Shown: in pieces, positions 8,356 to 20,205 of the stretch
Layout: each line of letters starts with the position of its first letter
Position numbering within the stretch: the stretch's first letter is position 1
Assembly: GCF_000518245.1 (NCBI RefSeq)
Contig: NZ_KI912408.1
Location: forward strand, 62,001-126,000
Source: Brachyspira alvinipulli ATCC 51933
GTDB lineage: Bacteria > Spirochaetota > Brachyspiria > Brachyspirales > Brachyspiraceae
Length of the DNA: 64,000 nt
Direction of reading: 5' to 3'
Notes under the pieces: generated by a model
Told to the model about the DNA's origin: nothing
Seen by the model: only the letters and a program-made list of their open reading frames with translations
The model's database searches: none
Program-made: the position numbers and the translations under genes

Positions 8356-9222
8356 TTATAATTTTTCTATTATTTCTATACTAAGTCCTGTTAATTCGCT
8401 TATAAGATTTAAATCCATATTTTTATTTTTCATATTTCTAGCTAGAGAATATTTTTCTTGTTCTATACCTTTTTGCATTCCTTCTTCTATGCCCTTTATA
8501 CGCTCCTCATTAAGCATTAAAACATTAAAATAATCTCTTTCATAATTACTGTAGCCATTATATAAATCATTACTTTTTACAAATTTATTATATTCTTCAT
8601 ATACTTCTTTCATTATAGGATTTTTCTTTACTAATATTTCCATAGTATCCTCCAATTTATCTTTCGAATTTAAAAACTCAAACCAATCTGATAAACCTTC
8701 ATATAAATTATAAGAATTGTTAAATTTTCTAAGTTCTAAAAAATGAAGCTCCAAATGATTCGTTAATATATGATTAGTTTCTAACTCTTTAATAAAATAA
8801 CAGCTATGAGGTTTATCTATGCCTTTTATCAAATTAAAATCAAGAATATTAATACTTATTACAGGTGTTAAATCTGAATATATATCCTTAGATTTTAAAT
8901 TTGTAAAATAATTCTTAGACCAATAATATAAACTTCTATATATAAATGAATGATTACCTATTCTTTGTATTTCTATTATTATAATTTCGCCTGATTTTGT
9001 TTTTGCCTTAACATCTGCTATTGATTCTTTATCAAATACATTTTCTTTTAAATTAAATGTATTAAGTATTTCTACATATTCAAACGGCTCTTGATTAGAG
9101 TCTATCCTAACGGAGTTAATAAGATTTTTAAGTATATGCTCATGCCCCTCTTTAGCGAACATATAACGCATAAAATAATCATTAAGCACATTAAAATATT
9201 TATTATTTGGTCTCAATTCCAT
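8356..9222 (-). CDS. Rpn-family PD-(D/E)XK nuclease/transposase-like protein (copy 1)
   Basis: A 288-residue member of the PDDEXK_2 (Rpn, recombination-promoting nuclease) family. The opening NDYFMRYMFA block is typical. The catalytic core is visible as D70 in ESIADVKAK and the E84-x-Q86 pair in IIIIEIQ. The C-terminus has the usual charged EEG/KGIE stretch followed by a helical tail, LISELTGLSIEIIEKL. Family members in E. coli are DNA endonucleases that raise recombination; many bacteria keep several copies. A paralogue lies at 48119-48997 with the same architecture. The promoter ends six bases before the ATG, so the message is probably leaderless. No transposon ends or target duplications are evident, so I treat it as a resident gene. 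Confidence 0.85.
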   Translation of the reverse strand: MELRPNNKYFNVLNDYFMRYMFAKEGHEHILKNLINSVRIDSNQEPFEYVEILNTFNLKENVFDKESIADVKAKTKSGEIIIIEIQRIGNHSFIYRSLYYWSKNYFTNLKSKDIYSDLTPVISINILDFNLIKGIDKPHSCYFIKELETNHILTNHLELHFLELRKFNNSYNLYEGLSDWFEFLNSKDKLEDTMEILVKKNPIMKEVYEEYNKFVKSNDLYNGYSNYERDYFNVLMLNEERIKGIEEGMQKGIEQEKYSLARNMKNKNMDLNLISELTGLSIEIIEKL

Positions 9223-9228
9223 AAAATT

Positions 9229-9256
9229 ATTATAATGAATTTTTATTCTTTGTCAA
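9229..9256 (-). promoter_or_regulatory. Leaderless-type promoter of the Rpn nuclease gene
   Basis: On the minus strand TTGACA (9251-9256) and TATAAT (9229-9234) are 16 bases apart. The -10 box ends six bases before the ATG at 9222, so transcription should begin at or next to the start codon. No Shine-Dalgarno fits in the gap. Confidence 0.65.
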
Positions 9257-9304
9257 ATACCGCATATTTTATTATTTGGCATATAAAAGAAAGAAAATTA
9301 AAAT

Positions 9305-9333
9305 TTGATTAAAGAACAAAAATATATTATACT
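9305..9333 (+). promoter_or_regulatory. Sigma-70 type promoter of mutS
   Basis: TTGATT (9305-9310) and TATACT (9328-9333) with a 17-base spacer, about 30 bases upstream of the mutS ATG. Confidence 0.6.
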
Positions 9334-9362
9334 AATCGAAAAATTTATAAACGGATAACTAT

Positions 9363-12026
9363 ATGCAGGAAACATTTTTTGGAAGCGATAAAGAAGATAA
9401 TCAAAAACTCACTCCTATGATGAGACAATACAAAGAGATAAAAGATAAATATAATGACAGTATACTTCTTTTCAGAATGGGAGATTTTTACGAAGTATTT
9501 TTTGATGATGCAAAAGTAGTGTCCGATATATTGGGGCTTACACTTACAAAAAGAGCTAATGTTCCTATGGCAGGAGTTCCTTATCATGCTATAGATAATT
9601 ATTTATCAAAATTAGTTAAATCTGGAATGAAGATTGCTATATGCGATCAAATGGAAGACCCTAAAACAGCAAAAGGTATAGTAAAAAGAGAGGTTACTCA
9701 GGTTATAACTCCTGGTACTATTTCAGAAAATAAATATTTAGAATCAAAAAGCAATAATTATTTAGCTTCTATAATAGTATCAAAAAGTGAGAAAAATGCT
9801 GCTTTATCTATATGCGATATTTCTACAGGAGAGCTTTATGCTACAGAAATAAATTCTAACTTAGAAAATCATAATGAAGCTTTAAAAGAAATCATTAATG
9901 AACTTACAGAAGAAATTATAAGATTCTCTCCTAAAGAGATTATGACTATAGAATCCGTTTCTGAAAGCATTATTATAAAAGAGATTCAAAATAAATTTAA
10001 TAATATATTCTACAGCACTACTCCGAATTACACTGCAGAACATTCTTATGCATATAAAACTTTAACAAATCATTTCAAAACAGTATCATTAAAAAGTTTC
10101 GGTATAGAAGAAAAGCCTCTTTTGATATCATTATTAGGATCTACTATATTTTATATACAGGAACTTTCAAAAACTTCTCTTGAGCATATTTCAAATATTA
10201 AACTATATAATAGAAAAGACTCCATGACTTTGGATTATGCTACAATAGCAAGTTTGGAAATATTAGAAACTATAAGAAATGATAATAATAAAATGACATT
10301 GTTTGACACCATAGATAGAACAAAAACTTCTATGGGGGCAAGATATTTAAAAAGAATAATTGTAGAGCCATTATTAAATATAGAAGAAATAAATAAAAGA
10401 CTTAATAATGTAGAGTTTTTCTATAAAAATCAAAAGTTTATGTATAAAATAAGAGATTTACTTCAGGATATTGGAGATATAGAAAGACTTGCATCAAAAT
10501 TGGCGTTAGGAAGGATTAACCCTAAAGAATTAGTATCACTAAAAAGATTTTTAGTAACTTCTCTTGAAGTTGTTACAGAACTTGCTATGAATGAATTTGA
10601 AGAAGTTAATTTTGAAGAGGTTAATGATATAAAAATAATAACTGATTTGATAGAACGTGCGATATTAGAGGATCCGAAAGTTGTTATAAATGAAGGCGAT
10701 ATAATAAAAGATGATTACAATGAAACATTAAGAAAATATAATGAAGCAAGAAGAGAAGGACGTTCTTGGATAGCAGAACTTGAACATAATTATAAATTAG
10801 ATACAGGAATTAATAATCTTAAAATAAGATATAATAATGTTATAGGTTATTATGTAGAAGTAACAAAATCAAATGTATCATCTGTGCCAAGCGATTTTAT
10901 AAAAAGACAAACATTAATAGGAAGCGAAAGATATACCACAAGCAAATTAATGGAATATGAAACTATTATAAATGAAGCTAATGAAAAAAGCTATGCATTA
11001 GAATATGATATATTTATTGAAGTGAGAAATAAAACTAATGAATATTTAAACTCAATATTAAAAATGGCAAGAGTAATTTCTATAATAGATGTTTATTCTT
11101 CTCTTGCATGCCTAGCTAAAGAAGATAATTATGTTAAGCCAATAATAACAAATGACGGCATAATAGACATAAAAGACGGAAGACACCCTGTTGTAGAAGT
11201 TAATCTAAAAACAGAAAGCTTCATTCCTAATGATACATATTTAGACAATAAAAATGAACATCTCCTTATAATTACAGGTCCTAATATGAGCGGTAAAAGT
11301 ACATATTTAAGACAAACTGCTTTAATAGTATTACTTGCTCAAATAGGTTCATTCGTTCCAGCAGCAAGTGCAAAAATTTCTATAGTTGATAGAATATTTA
11401 CACGTGTTGGTGCAAGCGATAATATAGCAAGAGGAGAAAGTACATTCTTAGTAGAGATGAATGAAACAGCATACATACTAAATCATTGTACAGATAAAAG
11501 CCTTGTTATAATGGATGAAATAGGAAGAGGTACTTCAACTTATGACGGACTTTCTATTGCTTGGGCTATAGTGGAATATTTAGTTCATGAGGAAAACAAA
11601 AAAGCTAAAACTTTATTTGCTACTCATTACCATGAACTTACTATGCTTGAAGATTTAGAAGGCGTTAAAAACTATAAAGTATTAGTTGAAGAATACAAAG
11701 ATGAAATAATATTTATGAAAAAAGTTACTGAAGGAGCTGCTCAATCAAGCTATGGTATATATGCGGCAAAAATAGCTGGTGCCCCTAATAAAGTTATAAA
11801 AAGAGCCACTGAAATATTAAAAAAATTAGAAGCTGATGCCAGTGTTCAGGTAGAAAATATAGAATTGAATACTCAAAAATCGAAGGATATACTTCCGCTT
11901 TATGAAGAGCCTAAAATAATGGAAAAAGAAAGCGAAATAGAAAATGAAATTAGAGATTTAAATATAAATGAAATTACGCCTATAGATGCTTTAAACTTAA
12001 TAAATAAATGGAAAAAATCCTTATAA
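9363..12026 (+). CDS. mutS: DNA mismatch repair protein MutS
   Basis: An 887-residue MutS1-type protein of normal length. It binds mismatched or looped bases in DNA and recruits MutL. The N-terminal mismatch-reading motif is present (FRMGDFYEVFFDDA, with the Phe-x-Glu that contacts the mismatch). The C-terminal ATPase has its Walker A (TGPNMSGKST, near residue 638), the RVGASDNIARGESTF block, and the Walker B/signature DEIGRGTSTYDG (near 718), followed by FATHYHEL. The end (LNINEITPIDALNLINKWK) is the usual dimerisation tail. The reading frame is intact, so slippage at the A/T tracts in this window would not be explained by loss of this gene. The cupin gene follows about 60 bases downstream and may be cotranscribed. 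Confidence 0.97.
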   Translation: MQETFFGSDKEDNQKLTPMMRQYKEIKDKYNDSILLFRMGDFYEVFFDDAKVVSDILGLTLTKRANVPMAGVPYHAIDNYLSKLVKSGMKIAICDQMEDPKTAKGIVKREVTQVITPGTISENKYLESKSNNYLASIIVSKSEKNAALSICDISTGELYATEINSNLENHNEALKEIINELTEEIIRFSPKEIMTIESVSESIIIKEIQNKFNNIFYSTTPNYTAEHSYAYKTLTNHFKTVSLKSFGIEEKPLLISLLGSTIFYIQELSKTSLEHISNIKLYNRKDSMTLDYATIASLEILETIRNDNNKMTLFDTIDRTKTSMGARYLKRIIVEPLLNIEEINKRLNNVEFFYKNQKFMYKIRDLLQDIGDIERLASKLALGRINPKELVSLKRFLVTSLEVVTELAMNEFEEVNFEEVNDIKIITDLIERAILEDPKVVINEGDIIKDDYNETLRKYNEARREGRSWIAELEHNYKLDTGINNLKIRYNNVIGYYVEVTKSNVSSVPSDFIKRQTLIGSERYTTSKLMEYETIINEANEKSYALEYDIFIEVRNKTNEYLNSILKMARVISIIDVYSSLACLAKEDNYVKPIITNDGIIDIKDGRHPVVEVNLKTESFIPNDTYLDNKNEHLLIITGPNMSGKSTYLRQTALIVLLAQIGSFVPAASAKISIVDRIFTRVGASDNIARGESTFLVEMNETAYILNHCTDKSLVIMDEIGRGTSTYDGLSIAWAIVEYLVHEENKKAKTLFATHYHELTMLEDLEGVKNYKVLVEEYKDEIIFMKKVTEGAAQSSYGIYAAKIAGAPNKVIKRATEILKKLEADASVQVENIELNTQKSKDILPLYEEPKIMEKESEIENEIRDLNINEITPIDALNLINKWKKSL

Positions 12027-12086
12027 ACATAAACTCAATTTTATGGTATTACAATCCGAAATTATATTATATAAATGAGGGCTGTT

Positions 12087-12410
12087 ATGACTGGACAATA
12101 TTATTATAAATCAACAACAGAAAGAGAATTTGACTGTATAAAAGATGATGAAAAATTAATAGAAACTTTAGCAGATAGAGGATATACAGTTTATTCTATT
12201 ACTCAAAAGCCTAATCAGCTTATACCATATCATGAACATCCTTCTGAAGAAATGGTTATAGTACTAAGCGGAAAAATCAGATATATAGTAGAAGAAGAAA
12301 TAGTAGATTTAGAAGAAGGCGATATTATTAGAGTAAGACCGCATTCTGTACATTCTATGATAGGAAGAACCGAAGAAGAAACTTCTAATCTTTTATTAGT
12401 TTTCATATAA
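12087..12410 (+). CDS. Small cupin-domain protein
   Basis: About 107 residues forming a single cupin barrel. The first metal-binding motif reads PYHEHPSEEMVIVLSG and the second is RVRPHSVHSM, with His and Glu ligands in the expected places. Such proteins bind a metal and act as small dioxygenases, isomerases or ligand sensors; the substrate here cannot be deduced. I choose the ATG at 12087 because GAGGG lies five bases before it; an in-frame ATG at 12075 has no ribosome site and would add four residues. It follows mutS and ends at a strong bidirectional terminator. Confidence 0.8.
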   Translation: MTGQYYYKSTTEREFDCIKDDEKLIETLADRGYTVYSITQKPNQLIPYHEHPSEEMVIVLSGKIRYIVEEEIVDLEEGDIIRVRPHSVHSMIGRTEEETSNLLLVFI

Positions 12411-12447
12411 AAAAATAGGAGCTTTATTTAATATAAGCCCCTATTTT
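12409..12447. terminator. Bidirectional terminator between the cupin gene and the metQ-like operon
   Basis: An A-run, AATAGGAGCTT, a short loop, AAGCCCCTATT and a T-run form a hairpin with one mismatch. It lies between the convergent cupin gene and the last gene of the minus-strand importer operon, so it can serve both. Confidence 0.7.
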
Positions 12448-12455
12448 CATAAAAT

Positions 12456-13256
12456 TTAAAATATTATATAAGCACCTTGAAATATCTCATTAAATTTATT
12501 CTTGTACTCTTCTGTTTGAGTTACTTTCACTAAATCTTTACTCCACTGTGAAGTTTCATTACCCTCATTTACAACTAAACCTGTTGGAAAATTATTATAT
12601 TCACCATCCTCTACTATATATGAATGAGCATCAAAACCTGCATTTTTCATAACACTTGAAAAAGTTATAGTAGCATCTACATCTTTATAAGAACCAGCTG
12701 TGGAGGTTGTTTCAACTTCTAAAAAATTAATATTCTTTGGATTTTCTTTTATATCTAACATAGTATAAAATTCACCGGTTTTTTCTCCTAATTTTAATAA
12801 ACCCAATCTTTCAAGAAATCTTAAACCTCTATCCATATTGCTTGGGTCATTAGATATTGTTATAGTAGCTCCATCTGGTATTTCTTCCACACTTTTATGT
12901 TTAGATGAATAAAGAGCATTCAAAGAAGCATATTTAAATCCATCTACTAATACTAAATGAGAATTATTAGCTTTATTAAAAGTATCTATCCAAGGTTTAT
13001 GATTTAATATAAGCCCATCAATCTCATTAGCACTTAAAGCCAAAGCAGGAAGATTATTTCCATCAAAAACTTTAATTTCAATTTTATACCCCTCATTTTC
13101 CATCAACCTTTTAATTTCTTCAACAGCCTGAACATTTAAAGGCATACATCCTATAACTATTGTATCATTTTTACTTTTTACTTTTTCTGTATTATTGCTA
13201 TTAGAACAAGAAAGCAATAATACCATAAACAATATTGATAATATTTTTGTTTTCAT
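12456..13256 (-). CDS. MetQ/NlpA-family substrate-binding lipoprotein (copy 2, distal)
   Basis: A 266-residue periplasmic binding lipoprotein of an ABC importer. It has a signal peptide with lipobox LLLSC (Cys17), then the NlpA fold with NHKPWIDTFNK, which corresponds to the HKPYLD block of MetQ. It is the last gene of the metN-metI-DUF169-metQ-metQ operon. Residues 1-38 are identical to the neighbouring copy, while later differences cluster at positions expected to line the ligand pocket. Where E. coli MetQ has the methionine-binding Asn (VDLAVINTTYA), this protein reads VDATITFSSVM. The ligand is therefore likely not plain L-methionine, or is held differently. The family call is firm; the substrate is not. 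Confidence 0.85.
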   Translation of the reverse strand: MKTKILSILFMVLLLSCSNSNNTEKVKSKNDTIVIGCMPLNVQAVEEIKRLMENEGYKIEIKVFDGNNLPALALSANEIDGLILNHKPWIDTFNKANNSHLVLVDGFKYASLNALYSSKHKSVEEIPDGATITISNDPSNMDRGLRFLERLGLLKLGEKTGEFYTMLDIKENPKNINFLEVETTSTAGSYKDVDATITFSSVMKNAGFDAHSYIVEDGEYNNFPTGLVVNEGNETSQWSKDLVKVTQTEEYKNKFNEIFQGAYIIF

Positions 13257-13290
13257 TATTTAACTCCTTAATTTATTTTAAATTGTTATA

Positions 13291-14091
13291 TTACAATATA
13301 TAAAAAGCACTCTGAAATATTTCATTAAATTTAGTTCTATATTCTTCTGTTTGAGTAGCTTTTACAAAATCTTCAGCCCACTGCGAAGTTTCATTACCTT
13401 CATTTACAAATAATCCAATTGGAAAATAACCAGACTCTCCATCCTCTGCTATATATGATCTTGCATCATAACCTGCATTTTTCATAGCAATAGAAGTGGC
13501 TATTGTAGCATCTACATCTTTATATGAACCAGCTGTTAAAGTTATTTCTACTTCTAAAAACTTTATATTCTTTGGATTTTCTTTTATATCAAGCATACTA
13601 TAAAATTCACCGGTTTTATCTCCTAATTTTAATAATCCCAATTTTTCAAGAAACCTTAAACCTCTATCCATATTGCTAGGATCATTAGATATTGTTATAG
13701 TAGCTCCATCTGGTATTTCTTCCACACTTTTATGTTTAGATGAATAAAGAGCATTAAAAAAACCATATTTAAATCCATCTACCAATACTAAATGAGAATT
13801 ATTAGCTTTATTAAAAGTATCTACCCATGGTTTATGATTTAATATTAATCCATCTATTTCATTGGCACTTAAAGCCAAAGCGGGAAGATTATTTCCATCA
13901 AAAATTTTAACTTCAATCTTATATCCATCTTTTTCCATTAGTTTTACAGCTTCTTCTACAACGTCTTTATTTGAAGCCATACATCCTATAACTATTGTAT
14001 CATTTTTACTTTTTACTTTTTCTGTATTATTGCTATTAGAACAAGAAAGCAATAACACCATAAACAATATTGATAATATTTTTGTTTTCAT
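13291..14091 (-). CDS. MetQ/NlpA-family substrate-binding lipoprotein (copy 1, proximal)
   Basis: A 266-residue tandem paralogue of the protein at 12456-13256. It shares the same lipoprotein signal (lipobox LLLSC) and the NHKPWVDTFNK block. It differs at residues 39-50 (ASNKDVVEEAVK against PLNVQAVEEIKR), at KYGFF against KYASL, and at VDATIATSIAM against VDATITFSSVM. These are the segments that contact ligand in MetQ, so the two proteins may feed different substrates into one transporter. As in its sister, the usual methionine-contact Asn is missing. It follows the DUF169 gene by 30 bases, with AGGA as ribosome site. Confidence 0.85.
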   Translation of the reverse strand: MKTKILSILFMVLLLSCSNSNNTEKVKSKNDTIVIGCMASNKDVVEEAVKLMEKDGYKIEVKIFDGNNLPALALSANEIDGLILNHKPWVDTFNKANNSHLVLVDGFKYGFFNALYSSKHKSVEEIPDGATITISNDPSNMDRGLRFLEKLGLLKLGDKTGEFYSMLDIKENPKNIKFLEVEITLTAGSYKDVDATIATSIAMKNAGYDARSYIAEDGESGYFPIGLFVNEGNETSQWAEDFVKATQTEEYRTKFNEIFQSAFYIL

Positions 14092-14121
14092 TTTTATTTC
14101 CTATTTAATATATTTAATTTT

Positions 14122-14928
14122 TTATCTTTTTACAATTCCACCAATATATGAACCATCATCATAATTCTCATTCATTCTAATATCTAATAAATCAGTTAAA
14201 TTATTTTTTTCTAATTTTTCTTTGATAATTTTTTTGTGTTTATTTCTTTCAAGAGGATTAACAGTTTTAATAATACCATCCAAAACATTTAGAAATATTC
14301 TATATGGCATTCCAATACCCATTTCATCATCTTTCCAACCAGATAACATTCTAGTTCCCGAACACATCATAGATATATTAAAACAACCATTTTCATAGGG
14401 ATAAGAAGTACATTCTTCACAAATAGCTTGCATACCAGATAACTTTATACTATCAGCATGTCCATAATGATATGCATAACCCTGTGATATACGCATAGCT
14501 TGATACGGTTTGCATATAAATATAACTACATCTGGTTCCTCTTCATAGTCTTTTAAAGGCATAATCGCAGTTCCAAAAATTCTATGTTCACAATACATCA
14601 TATTTCTAGACATTTTTCTGCTTACACCTAAATCTCTATATGTTTTAACTTTTCTTCTTTTTATACCATACTTAGTTTCTTCGGGTACATCCTGAAAACC
14701 TAGTGCCATAGCACCGCCTGAGCATGCATTATGGCCTTTGTGTATTTTTAATTTTCTACCTTTACTAGCTTTACTGACAAATCCACAATAGGATGTTTTA
14801 TTTTTTAATTCCTCAGCATTAAAACTATTATATTCCTCTTCAGAAAATAGAAACTTTATTCCAACAGGATATCTTTCAAGTTCCAATAAACTAAACAAAT
14901 ATTTAGATCTTTCCTCCATTGAATTCAT
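14122..14928 (-). CDS. DUF169-family protein within the importer operon
   Basis: A 268-residue protein of the DUF169 family, whose function is not established. It is rich in cysteine. Visible motifs are YPVGIKF near the start, a YCGFVSKA segment, HNACSGGAMALGF, and a run of cysteines in the second half (AICEECTSYPYENGCF, then MMCSGTRM). The pattern suggests metal, cofactor or Fe-S binding. It is soluble, with no signal peptide, so it acts in the cytoplasm. It lies between the permease and the two binding proteins, with an AAGGAG ribosome site and an 11-base gap from metI, so it is an operon member. A natural inference is that it handles or senses the imported compound. Confidence 0.8.
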   Translation of the reverse strand: MNSMEERSKYLFSLLELERYPVGIKFLFSEEEYNSFNAEELKNKTSYCGFVSKASKGRKLKIHKGHNACSGGAMALGFQDVPEETKYGIKRRKVKTYRDLGVSRKMSRNMMYCEHRIFGTAIMPLKDYEEEPDVVIFICKPYQAMRISQGYAYHYGHADSIKLSGMQAICEECTSYPYENGCFNISMMCSGTRMLSGWKDDEMGIGMPYRIFLNVLDGIIKTVNPLERNKHKKIIKEKLEKNNLTDLLDIRMNENYDDGSYIGGIVKR

Positions 14929-14938
14929 AAAATTCTCC

Positions 14939-15595
14939 TTACATTAATTTTTTATATATAAAATCACCTATATATTGTGCAATATTAACAAATAGAAACA
15001 TTACAAAAACAGAAAAATATAATATCGTATTATTAAAACTTTGATAACCATAAGTCAAAGCAACAGCTCCTAATCCGCCGCCGCCTACAGCACCAGCTAT
15101 TGTAGTAGCAGCTATATAATTAACAGTAGCCATAGTTAAAACAGATATAATAGAAGGTACAGATTCTTTTATAATTACTCCAATCATTATTTGTATATTT
15201 GTGGCACCGAAAGATTTAGCAGCTTCTATTAATTGTTTATCTACTTTAATAAAACTGCTTTCTAATAATCTAGCTATGAAGGCAGTTGCAGTAATAGATA
15301 ATGGAAGTATAACTGCTTTTTCTCCTACTGTTGTACCAATAACCAAACGTGTAAAAGGAGATATAGCAACTATTAAAATCAATATTGGAAAAGATCTAAT
15401 AGTATTAACAATAAAACTTAACACCATATAGAATTTCTTTTTATAATTTAAACCATTTGGACCATACATTGTAAGTAAACTTGCTATTATAAAACCTAAA
15501 ATAAAACCTATTAACATAGTAAAAAATACTATTCTAATAGTAACTATAGTAGAAGGTAATATTAATTTAAAAAAATAATTTATATATGTTTCCAA
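14939..15595 (-). CDS. metI: MetI-type ABC importer permease
   Basis: A 218-residue inner-membrane permease with five or six helices. It contains the MetI-family coupling region (SFGATNIQIMIGVIIKESVPS, the EAA loop) and the AGAVGGGGLGAVALTYGYQ motif typical of methionine-type permeases. The start is a TTG (15593-15595), two bases after the metN stop, with AGGAG placed seven bases upstream inside the end of metN. Close spacing means translation is probably coupled to metN. The gene name follows the family; the true substrate may differ, given the binding proteins in this operon. Confidence 0.88.
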   Translation of the reverse strand: METYINYFFKLILPSTIVTIRIVFFTMLIGFILGFIIASLLTMYGPNGLNYKKKFYMVLSFIVNTIRSFPILILIVAISPFTRLVIGTTVGEKAVILPLSITATAFIARLLESSFIKVDKQLIEAAKSFGATNIQIMIGVIIKESVPSIISVLTMATVNYIAATTIAGAVGGGGLGAVALTYGYQSFNNTILYFSVFVMFLFVNIAQYIGDFIYKKLM

Positions 15596-15597
15596 CT

Positions 15598-16560
15598 TTA
15601 TTCTCCTAATATTTTATAATGTTTTATACCAATGGATTTAATATATTCTTCTAATTTTTTTATATTATGATTAGAGATATTAATGATAACTTTACTAATA
15701 ATACAATTTTTATAATCTTCCATAGCAAAATTAATTATATCAACATCATATTTTTTTATTAATCTTTCAATGATATTTTTTGTATTATCATTATTTACAT
15801 ACATTATTTCTATATTCTTACCAGAATTAGGAAGTAGAACCTTATTCTCCCCTAATAAATTAATTAGAGAATTAGGTTCATCAATAAATATATCTTCAAC
15901 TTTTCCTGTATCTTTGATAATCCCATCTTCTATTATAGCAATATCATCACAAATTGATTTTACTACATTCATTTGATGCGTTACAAGAACTATTGTTATA
16001 CCCATAGATTTATTTATATTATTCAGTAGCTCCATAATAGAATCTGAATTTTTAGGATCAAGTGCAGATGTTGCCTCATCTGATAATAATATTTTTGGAT
16101 TCATTGATAAAGCTCTAGCAATAGCAACTCTCTGTTTCTGTCCGCCTGATAAATCTCTTGCCAAATTATTAATTTTATCATACATTCCTACTATATCAAT
16201 TAAATACCTTATACGATCATCCATTTCCTTTTTATTCCAATGCCAGCATTTCATTGGAAAAGCTATATTATCATACACACTTGCTCTAGTAATCAAAGAA
16301 AAATGCTGAAATATCATACCTATATCTTTTCTAAATACTCTTAATTCTTTATTATTAAGAGTATTAATTTGAACACCATTTACCTCTAAATACCCATAAT
16401 CATATTTCTCTAATCCATTTATACATCTCAATAAAGTAGATTTTCCAGCACCGCTTCTACCTATAATGCCAAAAATTTTTCCTTTTTCTATATTAAGATC
16501 TATACCTTTTAATATTTCTATATTATTATAATTCTTTTTCAATGCAGATATTTTTATCAT
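15598..16560 (-). CDS. metN: MetN-type ABC importer ATPase
   Basis: A 320-residue ATPase that powers the importer. Walker A is GRSGAGKST, the Q-loop is MIFQHFSLI, the signature is LSGGQKQRVAIARAL, and Walker B is ILLSDEATSALD, with the switch His in VTHQM. The last ~75 residues form the C-terminal regulatory (NIL-type) domain that in MetN binds methionine and shuts the transporter down. It is the first gene of the five-gene minus-strand operon (metN-metI-DUF169-metQ-metQ). I cannot see a consensus promoter or a recognised methionine riboswitch upstream. Confidence 0.92.
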   Translation of the reverse strand: MIKISALKKNYNNIEILKGIDLNIEKGKIFGIIGRSGAGKSTLLRCINGLEKYDYGYLEVNGVQINTLNNKELRVFRKDIGMIFQHFSLITRASVYDNIAFPMKCWHWNKKEMDDRIRYLIDIVGMYDKINNLARDLSGGQKQRVAIARALSMNPKILLSDEATSALDPKNSDSIMELLNNINKSMGITIVLVTHQMNVVKSICDDIAIIEDGIIKDTGKVEDIFIDEPNSLINLLGENKVLLPNSGKNIEIMYVNNDNTKNIIERLIKKYDVDIINFAMEDYKNCIISKVIINISNHNIKKLEEYIKSIGIKHYKILGE

Positions 16561-16858
16561 ATTGTACCACTAATAATTTATTATAAAATTGAATTAAACT
16601 ATAAGATTTTATTTTAGTTTAGAAAGAATTATTTAGACTCCCTGCCTAATCAAGAGTTATTTCTGGGGAAAATAATGAAATTTCAAAAATAAAAATGGAT
16701 TAAAATACATAGTTTTTTATTATACCTTTGATGTATAATCATAAATTAAAAAAAAGAAAAATCAACATATATAATACTATATATTATAATTAACCAAATA
16801 TAAATATATTACTAACGATTAATAATCATACTATTAAAACATTTTATGAAAAAATTAA
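16561..16858. other. Leader region of the importer operon
   Basis: This spacer lies between metN and dcd and should contain the metN promoter and leader. Most is AT-rich. One less AT-rich stretch (16634-16672; on the minus strand it contains CCCCAGAAATAACTC and GGCAGGGAGT) can form only a short ACTC/GAGT stem. I do not recognise it as any named riboswitch. Confidence 0.4.
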
Positions 16859-17377
16859 TTATTTGAAATCTTTATAAAGCATGCTAGGCTGAACATCTGT
16901 ATTATTCTGATATTTACTGCTTGTATATTCTTCGTATTCACCATCTATTGTATGATAATAAAGCTGTGCTATTTCAACTTCCGGGTATACTATTATTGGT
17001 TTTATACAGAATATTTCCAAAGTCCAATATCCTGCAAATCCTACATCTCCAAAACCAGCAGTAATATGTATAAATATTCCAAGTCTTCCTATAGATGATC
17101 TGCCTTCTATCATAGGTACATAATTTTTTGTATTTGTATATTCTAAAGTTCTTCCTAAATATAATTCATTAGGCTTTAATTCATAACCGCTTTTTGGTAT
17201 TATTATTTCTTCTACTTCATTTGGTTTTTTCATATCTAATATTTTATCTTTGTATACTAAAAGTTTATTATGTAATTTAACATTGTAGCTATTCGAATTT
17301 AATTGTTCTCTATTAAATGGTTCTATTATTATATTTTTTCCTAAATTCTTTTCTATCTCAAGTCCTGATAAAATCAT
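16859..17377 (-). CDS. dcd: dCTP deaminase
   Basis: A 172-residue deaminase that turns dCTP into dUTP, a step towards dTTP. The core motif is complete: EGRSSIGRLGIFIHITAGFGD, with the catalytic Glu and the triphosphate-binding Arg/Ser, then GFAGYWTLEIF and the C-terminal IAQLYYH block. It lacks the extra residues of bifunctional dCTP deaminase/dUTPases as far as I can judge. It is a single gene facing away from pgi, with an AGGA ribosome site. Confidence 0.9.
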   Translation of the reverse strand: MILSGLEIEKNLGKNIIIEPFNREQLNSNSYNVKLHNKLLVYKDKILDMKKPNEVEEIIIPKSGYELKPNELYLGRTLEYTNTKNYVPMIEGRSSIGRLGIFIHITAGFGDVGFAGYWTLEIFCIKPIIVYPEVEIAQLYYHTIDGEYEEYTSSKYQNNTDVQPSMLYKDFK

Positions 17378-17481
17378 TTATACAAAATCCTATTGTACTA
17401 TTAAATTTAATAAATTTTTCTTTATTTTTCGGTATTATTATAGTATAATTTACCAACTAAAATAAATTGATGGAGTTATTA

Positions 17482-18813
17482 ATGATATCTATAAATTATA
17501 AAAATGTATTAGGATTTTTACAAGAGCATGAATTAGAATATCTTGCTGAACGTGCTAAATATGCAAATGAACTTTTAGAAAATAAAAAAGGTGCAGGAAA
17601 TGATTTTTTAGGATGGGTTAATCTTCCTAGTGAAGCACTAAAAATGGTTAAAGAAATTGATGAATTAGCTAAAGAAATAAGAGAAAATGCTGAAGTTTTA
17701 GTATCTGTTGGTATAGGAGGTTCTTATTTAGGAGGAAAGGCAGTTATTGAATCATTTTTAAATCCTTTCTCTCAAGCTAAAAAAGGAAATACTCAAGTTG
17801 TATATGCTGGCCATAATATGAACGGAGAATATTTCAAGCATTTATTAGATTATTTAGATGGAAAAGACTTCTATATTAATGTAATATCTAAAAGCGGTAC
17901 TACAACAGAACCTGCTATAGCTTTCAGAATGTTAAAAGAATATGCTGAAAAAAGATATGGTAAAGAAGGTGCAGCTAAAAGAATAATAGCTACTACAGAT
18001 AAAGCCAAAGGTGCTTTAAAAACTTTATCCACAGAAAATAAATATAGAACTTTTGTTATACCAGATGATGTTGGAGGAAGATATTCTGTACTTACTCCTG
18101 TTGGTTTAATTCCTATTGCTGCTGCTGGAATAAATATAGAAGAGTTTGTTAAAGGATTTGATTCTATGGCAAAAATAACTAAAGAGATGGATTATAAGAA
18201 AAATCCTTCTATGTTATATGCTATGCTTAGAAATGCTCTTTATGCTAAAGGATACAGCACTGAAATAATGGTTAACTATATACCTAGAATGCACTACATA
18301 TCTGAATGGTGGAAACAATTACAAGGAGAAAGTGAAGGTAAAGATAAAAAAGGTATATTCCCTGCTTCCGTTGATTTCTCTACTGACTTACACTCTTTAG
18401 GTCAATTCATACAAGATGGTAAAAGAGGTTTATTTGAAACTGTTATAAGAGTTGATAAAGAAGACATTGACTTAAAAATGAAAAAAGAAGATTCTGATTT
18501 GGATGGACTTAATTATTTAGATGGAAAATCTTTGCATGAAATTAACAAGTCAGCATTAGAAGCTACAGTTCTTGCCCATGTTGATGGAGGAGTACCAAAT
18601 ATAATAATAGATATTGATAAAATTACTCCTTTTACTATTGGAGAACTTTTATACTTCTTTGAAAAAGCATGCGGAATATCTGGGCATATACTTGGAGTTA
18701 ATCCATTCGATCAACCTGGTGTAGAAGCATATAAGAAAAACATGTTTGCTATGCTTGGTAAAAAAGGCTATGAAGAAATGGGTAAAACTTTAAGAGCTAG
18801 ATTAGAAAAATAA
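17482..18813 (+). CDS. pgi: Glucose-6-phosphate isomerase
   Basis: About 443 residues; interconverts glucose 6-phosphate and fructose 6-phosphate. It is the compact bacterial form (about 450 residues, like that of Firmicutes). Diagnostic stretches are VGIGGSYLGGKA, VISKSGTTTEPA, DVGGRYSVLTPVG and, near the end, NPFDQPGVEAYKK. I choose the ATG at 17482 (MISINYK) because GGAG sits six bases upstream; the frame is also open to a TTG at 17467 that lacks such a site. A TATAAT-like box precedes it near 17450. It is followed by a clear terminator. Confidence 0.95.
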   Translation: MISINYKNVLGFLQEHELEYLAERAKYANELLENKKGAGNDFLGWVNLPSEALKMVKEIDELAKEIRENAEVLVSVGIGGSYLGGKAVIESFLNPFSQAKKGNTQVVYAGHNMNGEYFKHLLDYLDGKDFYINVISKSGTTTEPAIAFRMLKEYAEKRYGKEGAAKRIIATTDKAKGALKTLSTENKYRTFVIPDDVGGRYSVLTPVGLIPIAAAGINIEEFVKGFDSMAKITKEMDYKKNPSMLYAMLRNALYAKGYSTEIMVNYIPRMHYISEWWKQLQGESEGKDKKGIFPASVDFSTDLHSLGQFIQDGKRGLFETVIRVDKEDIDLKMKKEDSDLDGLNYLDGKSLHEINKSALEATVLAHVDGGVPNIIIDIDKITPFTIGELLYFFEKACGISGHILGVNPFDQPGVEAYKKNMFAMLGKKGYEEMGKTLRARLEK

Positions 18814-18825
18814 TTTTTAGAATTT

Positions 18826-18864
18826 AAAAAAGGAGTTAATAAATATATTATTGACTCCTTTTTA
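18826..18864 (+). terminator. Terminator of pgi
   Basis: AAAAAGGAGT, an AT-rich loop, then ACTCCTTTTT form a hairpin followed by a T-run, 12 bases after the pgi stop codon. Confidence 0.75.
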
Positions 18865-18920
18865 ATTTATATTATAATATCCAACACTATCTATACAATA
18901 CAAATATTTCGAGGTAAATT

Positions 18921-19565
18921 ATGAACAAACTTATAAACTTGAAACTAGAAGAATATATTAATGAAGTGGATTCTCCATCACCTGCTCCAGGAGGAGGAAG
19001 TGTTATGGGCGCTGTAGCTAGCTTGGCATCTGCATTAGCTGGAATGGTGGGACATCTTACTGTAAACAAGAAAAAATTTTTAACATTAAGCGAAGAAGAA
19101 CAAAATATATTTAATAATTCCATAGAACAAATAAAAAAGATTAAAATTAATTTAATTGAAATAGTTGATAAAGATGCTGAAGGTTTTAATCTATTTATGG
19201 AAGCTATGAAAATGCCTAAAGATACAGAAGAGCAAATTAATAAAAGAAAAGATGCTATGTCAAATGCTGCAATAAAAGCTATAGAACCTCCTTTTAATAC
19301 TCTTAAATATTGTTATGAATTAATTGAATTATTTGATGTAGTTTTAAAATATGGAAATCAGGGAGTTATTACAGATATCGCATCAGCATATATACTTGCT
19401 TTTGCTGCTGCTAAAGGTTCTATTTTAAATATAAATGTTAATATTCCAATGATAAATGATGAAAATGTTTTAAAAGAAATTAAAACAGAAAGCATTAAAT
19501 ACATAAAAGAAATTGAAAATAGATATTTATCTATAGAAAAAGAAATTTCTTTATTCAGCATTTAA
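18921..19565 (+). CDS. Cyclodeaminase/cyclohydrolase-family folate enzyme (FchA-like)
   Basis: A 214-residue all-helical protein of the FTCD_C family. The signature near the start is SPAPGGGSVMGAVASLASAL, with the conserved D and PGGGS that bind the folate. Free-standing members act as methenyl-tetrahydrofolate cyclohydrolase in one-carbon metabolism; as a fusion partner the domain is formiminotetrahydrofolate cyclodeaminase. No histidine-degradation genes lie nearby, so the cyclohydrolase role (fchA) is more likely. The ribosome site is CGAGGT, seven bases before the ATG. Confidence 0.82.
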   Translation: MNKLINLKLEEYINEVDSPSPAPGGGSVMGAVASLASALAGMVGHLTVNKKKFLTLSEEEQNIFNNSIEQIKKIKINLIEIVDKDAEGFNLFMEAMKMPKDTEEQINKRKDAMSNAAIKAIEPPFNTLKYCYELIELFDVVLKYGNQGVITDIASAYILAFAAAKGSILNINVNIPMINDENVLKEIKTESIKYIKEIENRYLSIEKEISLFSI

Positions 19566-19908
19566 TACAATTATCTAAAATATTTAATCATATCCCTATT
19601 TGATATTATATTTATGAAAATATATTATTATAATTGGTATATTTTTATACGAATTCTAATTTTGTTTTTTCATATTGATATTTTGTTTATAGTATGATAA
19701 TCTTTACAAACAACAAGGGTTTATAAAATATACTAAGAATAAAATATAATAATATAATTTTTTAAGTTTATTCTTGTATTTTGATGTAATTTATCTAAAT
19801 TGCTTTAAAATAAAAAACTATTTTAGTTTATTGCATTACTATGTTTTTTTAAAATCTACTTGTGACAATTTTTTAGTTATATGTATTCTTTTTTTATAGG
19901 AGGTTCAA
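19566..19908. other. AT-rich intergenic region
   Basis: 343 bases without a gene. It is more than four-fifths A/T. Near its end TTGTGACA lies upstream of an AT-rich stretch and may hold the promoter for the HTH gene at 19909. No hairpin with a T-run and no RNA gene is evident. Confidence 0.4.
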
Positions 19909-20205
19909 ATGAGCATAACTACTAAACATATGATATCCTTAACTGAAGATGAAAAAGAAAAAATTAAAGAATTCATCAAGAAAGAAGGAAAATCTAAAAG
20001 ACTTATATCAAGAGCTAATATTATTTTAGCATTAGATGATAAAAAAAATACAGGATTAACTCATACAGATATTGCTAAACAATATAATGTTACATATCAT
20101 ACAGTAGTAAACATTATAAATGAGTACATTAAATCAGGATTGGATGAAACCCTGACATATAAGAGGAATCCTAACAGCAATAGAAAAAAGAAACAGGCTA
20201 ATTAA
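19909..20205 (+). CDS. Stand-alone IS630-type helix-turn-helix protein (transposase remnant)
   Basis: A 98-residue protein matching the N-terminal DNA-binding domain of IS630/Tc1-type transposases: LTEDEKEKIKEFIKKE, then SRANIILAL, then the helix-turn-helix THTDIAKQYNVTYHTVVNIIN and EYIKSGLDETLTYKR. It stops where a full transposase would continue into its DDE domain, and no such domain follows; the next gene faces the other way. Thus it is either a truncated insertion-sequence relic or a small regulator derived from one. The strong ribosome site (AGGAGG, six bases before the ATG) and clean frame suggest it is still translated. The end is basic and Asn-rich (NRKKKQ). Confidence 0.72.
   Translation: MSITTKHMISLTEDEKEKIKEFIKKEGKSKRLISRANIILALDDKKNTGLTHTDIAKQYNVTYHTVVNIINEYIKSGLDETLTYKRNPNSNRKKKQAN

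Follow-up and report, generated by a model that had tools for sequence, protein, structure and literature searches.

The closest described relatives of the system presented here are the MetNIQ methionine importers of Escherichia coli and Neisseria meningitidis. According to the available part of PMC6739813, the structures of Neisseria MetQ revealed that the methionine head group is held by R156, N213 and N238 and the side chain by Y81, F98, H100 and Y103. In the same source, N213 and N238 both touch the amino and carboxyl groups, and the exchange N238A (N229A in E. coli) made L-methionine binding more than 10^5-fold weaker. From Brachyspira, a MetQ-like lipoprotein, BmpB/Bhlp29.7, is known (PMC3305480, in the part available). 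Here, a gene group of the gut spirochaete Brachyspira alvinipulli ATCC 51933 was analysed, which is located at positions 12456-16560 of a stretch of 64,000 nucleotides (the window) and in which the genes of a MetNIQ-type importer enclose a gene for a protein of DUF169, a family without known function. On balance, we lean towards a second MetNIQ-type importer with receptors of a distinct MetQ subfamily without the methionine clamp, which would import another small compound, with DUF169 as a constant cytoplasmic partner.

On the minus strand, the five genes follow one another head to tail in the order metN-metI-DUF169-metQ-metQ. In an initial annotation, made from the letters alone, order, strand and coordinates had been given in the same way, in agreement with the open reading frames and the Pfam and NCBIfam families. 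Since the gaps between the genes are short (2, 10, 30 and 34 bases), they likely form one operon, which codes for the following proteins:

15598..16560, minus strand: MetN-like ATP-binding cassette (ABC) ATPase, P0005, 320 amino acids; ABC_tran, with a diverged C-terminal NIL-type region
14939..15595, minus strand: MetI-like permease, P0004, 218 amino acids, TTG start; BPD_transp_1
14122..14928, minus strand: DUF169 protein, P0003, 268 amino acids; DUF169 with 202 bits (cut-off 27)
13291..14091, minus strand: NlpA/MetQ-type lipoprotein, P0002, 266 amino acids; Lipoprotein_9/PF03180
12456..13256, minus strand: NlpA/MetQ-type lipoprotein, P0001, 266 amino acids; Lipoprotein_9/PF03180, tandem duplicate of P0002

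P0001 and P0002 share 83% identity, with the first 38 residues being the same, and the two receptors matched Lipoprotein_9 with 166 and 154 bits (Pfam gathering cut-off 27). The NCBIfam scores were under the cut-offs for MetN (P0005, 259 bits, cut-off 500), MetI (P0004, 146 bits, cut-off 212) and MetQ (125 and 132 bits for the two receptors, cut-off 229), and the NIL-type region of P0005 reached 14.8 bits at a cut-off of 24.

Methionine contacts in the receptors

By alignment, the Neisseria contacts were mapped onto R144, N202 and N229 (head group) and Y69, F86, H88 and Y91 (side chain) of E. coli MetQ. At positions 69/86/88/91/144/202/229, P0001 has N L H W R F T and P0002 has N L H W R T I, and both receptors retain H88 and R144 alone. 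The motifs VDATITFSSVM and VDATIATSIAM are present where E. coli MetQ has VDLAVINTTYA. N202, the Asn of VINTTYA, is F in P0001 and T in P0002, and at the place of the SPYVN Asn (N229) they carry T and I, respectively. The missing Asn of the first segment, which had been noticed initially, is real and is one among several losses in the pocket.

Among 22 DUF169-linked receptors from two phyla, Y69, F86, N202 and N229 were each retained in none, H88 in 21 and R144 in 11. In the unlinked receptors, these four residues were present in nearly all. R144 was retained in 38 of 38, and of the 37 rows covering each column, 36 have N202 and 36 have N229; these 38 rows, of which five are fragments without the N-terminal columns, derive mostly from closely related Brachyspira and are not 38 independent cases. 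This difference, together with the altered side-chain pocket, makes a ligand other than methionine likely, as proposed in the initial annotation. It also provides a sharp signature for a MetQ subfamily without the methionine clamp, the members of which databases will tend to label as methionine-binding.

In a tree, the 22 linked receptors formed one clade with a support of 0.997 that also contains the sole non-canonical unlinked receptor, the third MetQ of Peptacetobacter hominis (locus L073, 1387-2208), in which Y69, F86, N202 and N229 are absent and which has no adjoining DUF169. The MetQ of L186 is canonical, and the DUF169 protein of this locus falls outside the importer-linked clade described below. 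In this tree, the linked receptors from Brachyspira are closest to L092, which belongs to the same phylum as Hathewaya massiliensis, and not to the receptors on contig C7 of their own genome, which points to a transfer across phyla.

Alternatively, the pocket might have drifted in an importer of methionine, D-methionine or a derivative, with other residues binding methionine-like amino acids and DUF169 being a bystander. Of the 22 linked receptors, 21 retain H88 and 11 retain R144, the two of the window among them, which would agree with this, as would the metY- and metA-like genes beside L069 (P. hominis) and the metK-like gene beside L215, which were named by eye. However, R144 is gone from the other 11 linked receptors. 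The NIL region, which is the methionine-sensing part of MetN, was over the cut-off in four of eight linked MetN proteins tested, under the cut-off (as in P0005) or missing in the other four, and clear in two of two unlinked ones, which fits a non-methionine cargo. A bystander is further not expected beside seven importer types. In Neisseria MetQ, the loss of N238 alone had the drastic effect cited above (PMC6739813), and here both asparagines are gone in 22 of 22. A methionine importer is therefore decidedly improbable. Selenomethionine as the ligand of a methionine site was also considered and dropped, since the amino-acid clamp is gone.

A DUF169 clade and its importers

Of 392 genomes sampled from the phylum of the window, 21 contain DUF169, as do 112 of 398 from the phylum of H. 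massiliensis, where MetNIQ is present within 5 kilobases (kb) of DUF169 in three of 120 fetched loci (L092, L186 and L194). In a first tree, P0003 belonged to a clade of 14 members (support 0.93), all of them beside an importer. A profile built from this clade was run over three orders and gave matches in 38 of 227, 2 of 25 and 3 of 38 genomes. Among the 50 new places were ten low-scoring or fragmentary ones, which were omitted, and the other 40 were fetched. Of these 40 loci, which were picked on the DUF169 sequence score alone, 29 are located beside an importer. In a larger tree, P0003 was part of a group of 54 members, with a node support of 0.42 that rises to 0.998 when two sister sequences are added.

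An importer was identified beside DUF169 in 43 of the 54 loci, by hidden Markov models and by reading. MetNIQ was present in 20 loci, an Ssu/NMT1-like system in six, polar amino acid/cystine-like and energy-coupling factor (ECF) systems in five each, and oligopeptide, OpuC-like and FecCD-like systems in four, two and one, the last three labels coming from reading of the sequences and not from a family search. Parsimony on the DUF169 tree required at least 13 changes among the seven types over the 43 tips. An ABC ATPase in the operon of DUF169 itself was found in 39 of 54 clade loci versus 2 of 112 other DUF169 loci (p=4e-23), and a MetQ at a distance of up to 4.8 kb in 21 of 54 versus 1 of 112 (p=4e-11), p-values that overstate independence, since the 54 loci include related genomes. 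The 112 control loci are the 120 top-scoring fetched ones minus seven clade members and L106, in which no DUF169 open reading frame was found; they contain the sister sequences L179 and L182, and lower-scoring listed places and short spirochaete loci were left out.

The association of DUF169 with a MetNIQ-type importer, on which the initial annotation was based, is thus found elsewhere, with a MetNIQ operon in 20 of the 54 clade loci, but it is not specific for MetNIQ. The linkage of DUF169 is to importers in general, and DUF169 proteins outside the clade are mostly without such a link. DUF169 thereby gains a testable setting, in which it is the constant protein and the importer beside it is of any of seven types.

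Transport, the ligand and an action of DUF169 on the cargo are inferred. Going by what is known of the families, the receptors would catch the compound outside the inner membrane and the MetNI-type pair would bring it in. Inside, DUF169 would take up or chemically convert the cargo or its sulfur, selenium or methyl part, as suggested by the co-location and by four near-invariant cysteines, and the importer beside it would have been swapped repeatedly during evolution, with DUF169 being constant. P0003 contains 8 Cys in 268 residues, so that its initial description as cysteine-rich was fair. In the clade, C48, C69 and C189 are conserved in 53 of 54 members and C170 in all 54, and R146 and R193 are invariant. 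Sensing or processing of the ligand by DUF169, as proposed initially, would be consistent with these data.

If DUF169 were a sensor, it might be a cytoplasmic ligand-sensing regulator of the importer, which substitutes for the NIL-domain control of MetN and does not process the cargo. The weak NIL region of linked MetN proteins points in this direction, and a single protein could serve many importers. However, the near-invariant cysteines and the two invariant arginines point to a site for a metal, a cluster or a chalcogen, some clade members are without an importer, and ECF and oligopeptide systems would have to accept the same regulator, so that such a role is regarded as unlikely.

In the retrieved parts of the literature on DUF169, COG2043 and PF02596, incidental mentions and no study of DUF169 with importers were found. 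In the parts available, DUF169 takes rank 7 among the STRING entries for YedE, which is linked to selenium (PMC5322559), and appears in a nitrate-fitness table, adjoining TauE and PtxB genes (PMC4001038). A sequence search of the PDB with DUF169 gave two weak SWR1 matches (E values of 0.055 and 0.057), which were taken as chance.

Selenium, methyltransferase and sulfur contexts

Selenium clusters surround clade DUF169 genes, in whole or in part, in five of the 54 loci, which belong to three lineages. L215 has selA, yedE, a DUF3343-like gene, selD and a SclA-like gene as neighbours. L216 contains LysR_Sec_metab, a SclA-like gene, yedE, a double-cubane reductase with its activase, a DUF3343-like gene, yedF, selD and grd; L262 and L263, which are from the same taxonomic order as L216, repeat this cluster in part. 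In L217, MetNIQ, a DUF3343-like gene, yedE, a SclA-like gene and LysR_Sec_metab were identified. The DUF3343 label rests on profiles built here, NCBIfam having assigned no name. The SclA-like proteins are under the cut-off for SclA; those of L215 and L217, which were scanned for it, are over that of the general cysteine desulfurase family. The selD gene was present in 11 of 11 other clade genomes, while 260 of the 398 genomes sampled from the phylum have it (0.65^11 = 0.009), which is suggestive only, since the 11 genomes are not independent and two are from another phylum. In the window genome, selD is located elsewhere. A DUF169 gene of another clade (L151, 1345-2427) also has yedE within 5 kb, so that a link to selenium may not be confined to the importer clade.

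Genes for UroD/MtaA-type methyltransferases are located at a distance of up to 4.8 kb in 6 of 54 clade loci versus 0 of 112 others. In L263 and in Acetoanaerobium noterae (L266), strings of DUF169, importer, corrinoid protein, UroD-type methyltransferase and RACo-type genes were found. The string of L266 (NZ_CP154629.1, 13974-25214) consists of DUF169, an Ssu-type ABC importer, a CobW-like protein, several UroD-type proteins, a corrinoid protein and a RACo-like protein, as named from profiles built here and from reading; the record is labelled a plasmid, yet with 2.6 Mb it resembles a chromosome. These strings speak for a methylated cargo, with DUF169 being part of a corrinoid-dependent demethylation rather than of selenium metabolism. 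However, 48 of the 54 loci have no UroD-type gene within 4.8 kb, and none was found among the open reading frames listed around the Brachyspira operon, so that this explanation appears rather doubtful.

TudS-like desulfidase genes are present in L232, L242, L262 and L263. Upstream of the DUF169 region of L262 (6728-9408) and L263 (3417-6035), genes for ECF_S_CD3073, a TudS-related CD3072, a C-GCAxxG-C-C protein and a SLAC1/TDT transporter are conserved. In L243 (4205-10580), DUF169 is located near histidine-degradation genes (hutI, FTCD parts and hutU, by resemblance only). A thiouracil- or ergothioneine-type ligand was considered on the basis of the TudS-like and hut-like genes, and the loci are too few. 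In L246 (9655-14168), DUF169 is followed by three subunits that by eye resemble a molybdenum hydroxylase.

The selenium, methyltransferase and TudS-like contexts would have a common denominator in a (methyl-)sulfur or selenium compound, although most loci show neither a selenium nor a methyltransferase context. An organic sulfur or selenium compound is thus named as a tentative cargo of the preferred non-methionine importer. Going further, the DUF169 proteins of the clade might be entry proteins for the scavenging of organo-selenium or methyl-selenium compounds, with interchangeable importers, a four-Cys DUF169 that hands selenium to the SelD pathway, and corrinoid methyltransferases that demethylate in the loci that have them. 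In this scheme, the operon of Brachyspira would represent the form with MetNIQ. In this complete form, the proposal is speculative and unlikely to hold. If the selenium or the methyl-compound reading were true, it would reveal how anaerobes take up organic selenium or methylated compounds.

Several observations weigh against the preferred reading or its selenium extension. No obvious importer adjoins DUF169 in 11 of the 54 clade loci, and DUF169 may work without one; the altered MetQ of L073 is distant from the single DUF169 of its genome. The selenium link is thin, with 4 of 54 versus 1 of 112 loci in equal windows (p=0.04, related genomes not being independent). A selenium-biogenesis marker was found in 0 of 36 loci fetched from the order of genome G394, and YedE, YedF, DUF3343, SelD and SelA were not found in the window with profiles built here. 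As a discriminator within the genus, selD was rejected, since 25 of the 26 genomes of Brachyspira have it over the cut-off and it does not track DUF169. An AlphaFold2 model of P0003 from five sequences reached a predicted local distance difference test (pLDDT) score of 67.5 and gave no Foldseek match at E<=0.001, and in a second run, with the L067 protein as lead sequence, the pLDDT was 33.9.

The operon in Brachyspira and its relation to known systems

DUF169 is present in 3 of 26 Brachyspira genomes, in all three with an ATPase-permease-DUF169-MetQ operon, which contains a single MetQ in the other two genomes versus two in the window. In the window genome and in genome G015, the start of the operon adjoins the same two genes, for a dCTP deaminase and for a 448-residue protein resembling pgi; in G016, the operon is located at a different genomic place. 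PF03180 receptors were identified in 26 of 26 genomes, with six in the window genome. Contig C7 carries the genes of four of these, together with a MetN and a MetI of their own and apart from the DUF169 operon; all four receptors keep N202 and N229, and one has H88N. We take C7 to be the locus corresponding to BmpB/Bhlp29.7. In related genomes, broken or fragmentary MetQ copies occur in the main MetQ cluster (G014:C4:20562-21217, G015:C8:2049573-2050249 and G017:C86:23375-23572).

Around the operon, the dCTP deaminase (16859-17377, over the NCBIfam cut-off) and an FTCD_C/FchA-like protein (18921-19565) are ordinary genes, and the open reading frame 8356-9222 presumably codes for a PD-(D/E)XK/Rpn-type transposase-like protein. 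An Rfam scan of window positions 9000-20000 gave no match, and a scan for promoters and terminators (52 promoter-like sites versus 45 expected, zero terminators) was set aside.

Compared to the YedE/YedF/SelD selenium clusters, which enclose five clade loci in whole or in part, the window operon has no such genes beside it. P0003 is a clear member of DUF169 (PF02596, COG2043), but unlike most other members examined, it belongs to an importer-linked clade. The C7 system shares the genome, the transporter family and the tandem receptors with the operon; however, its receptors keep both asparagines, and DUF169 was not found in the 17 kb fetched. In contrast to MetNIQ of E. coli and N. meningitidis, the receptors of the window have Y69, F86, N202 and N229 all replaced, the operon encloses DUF169, and the NIL region and the NCBIfam scores are under the cut-offs. 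With MetNIQ, the operon shares the ATPase-permease-lipoprotein layout, the MetN-, MetI- and MetQ-type sequences and the PF03180 receptors, and it is a new transporter variant within the MetNIQ kind.

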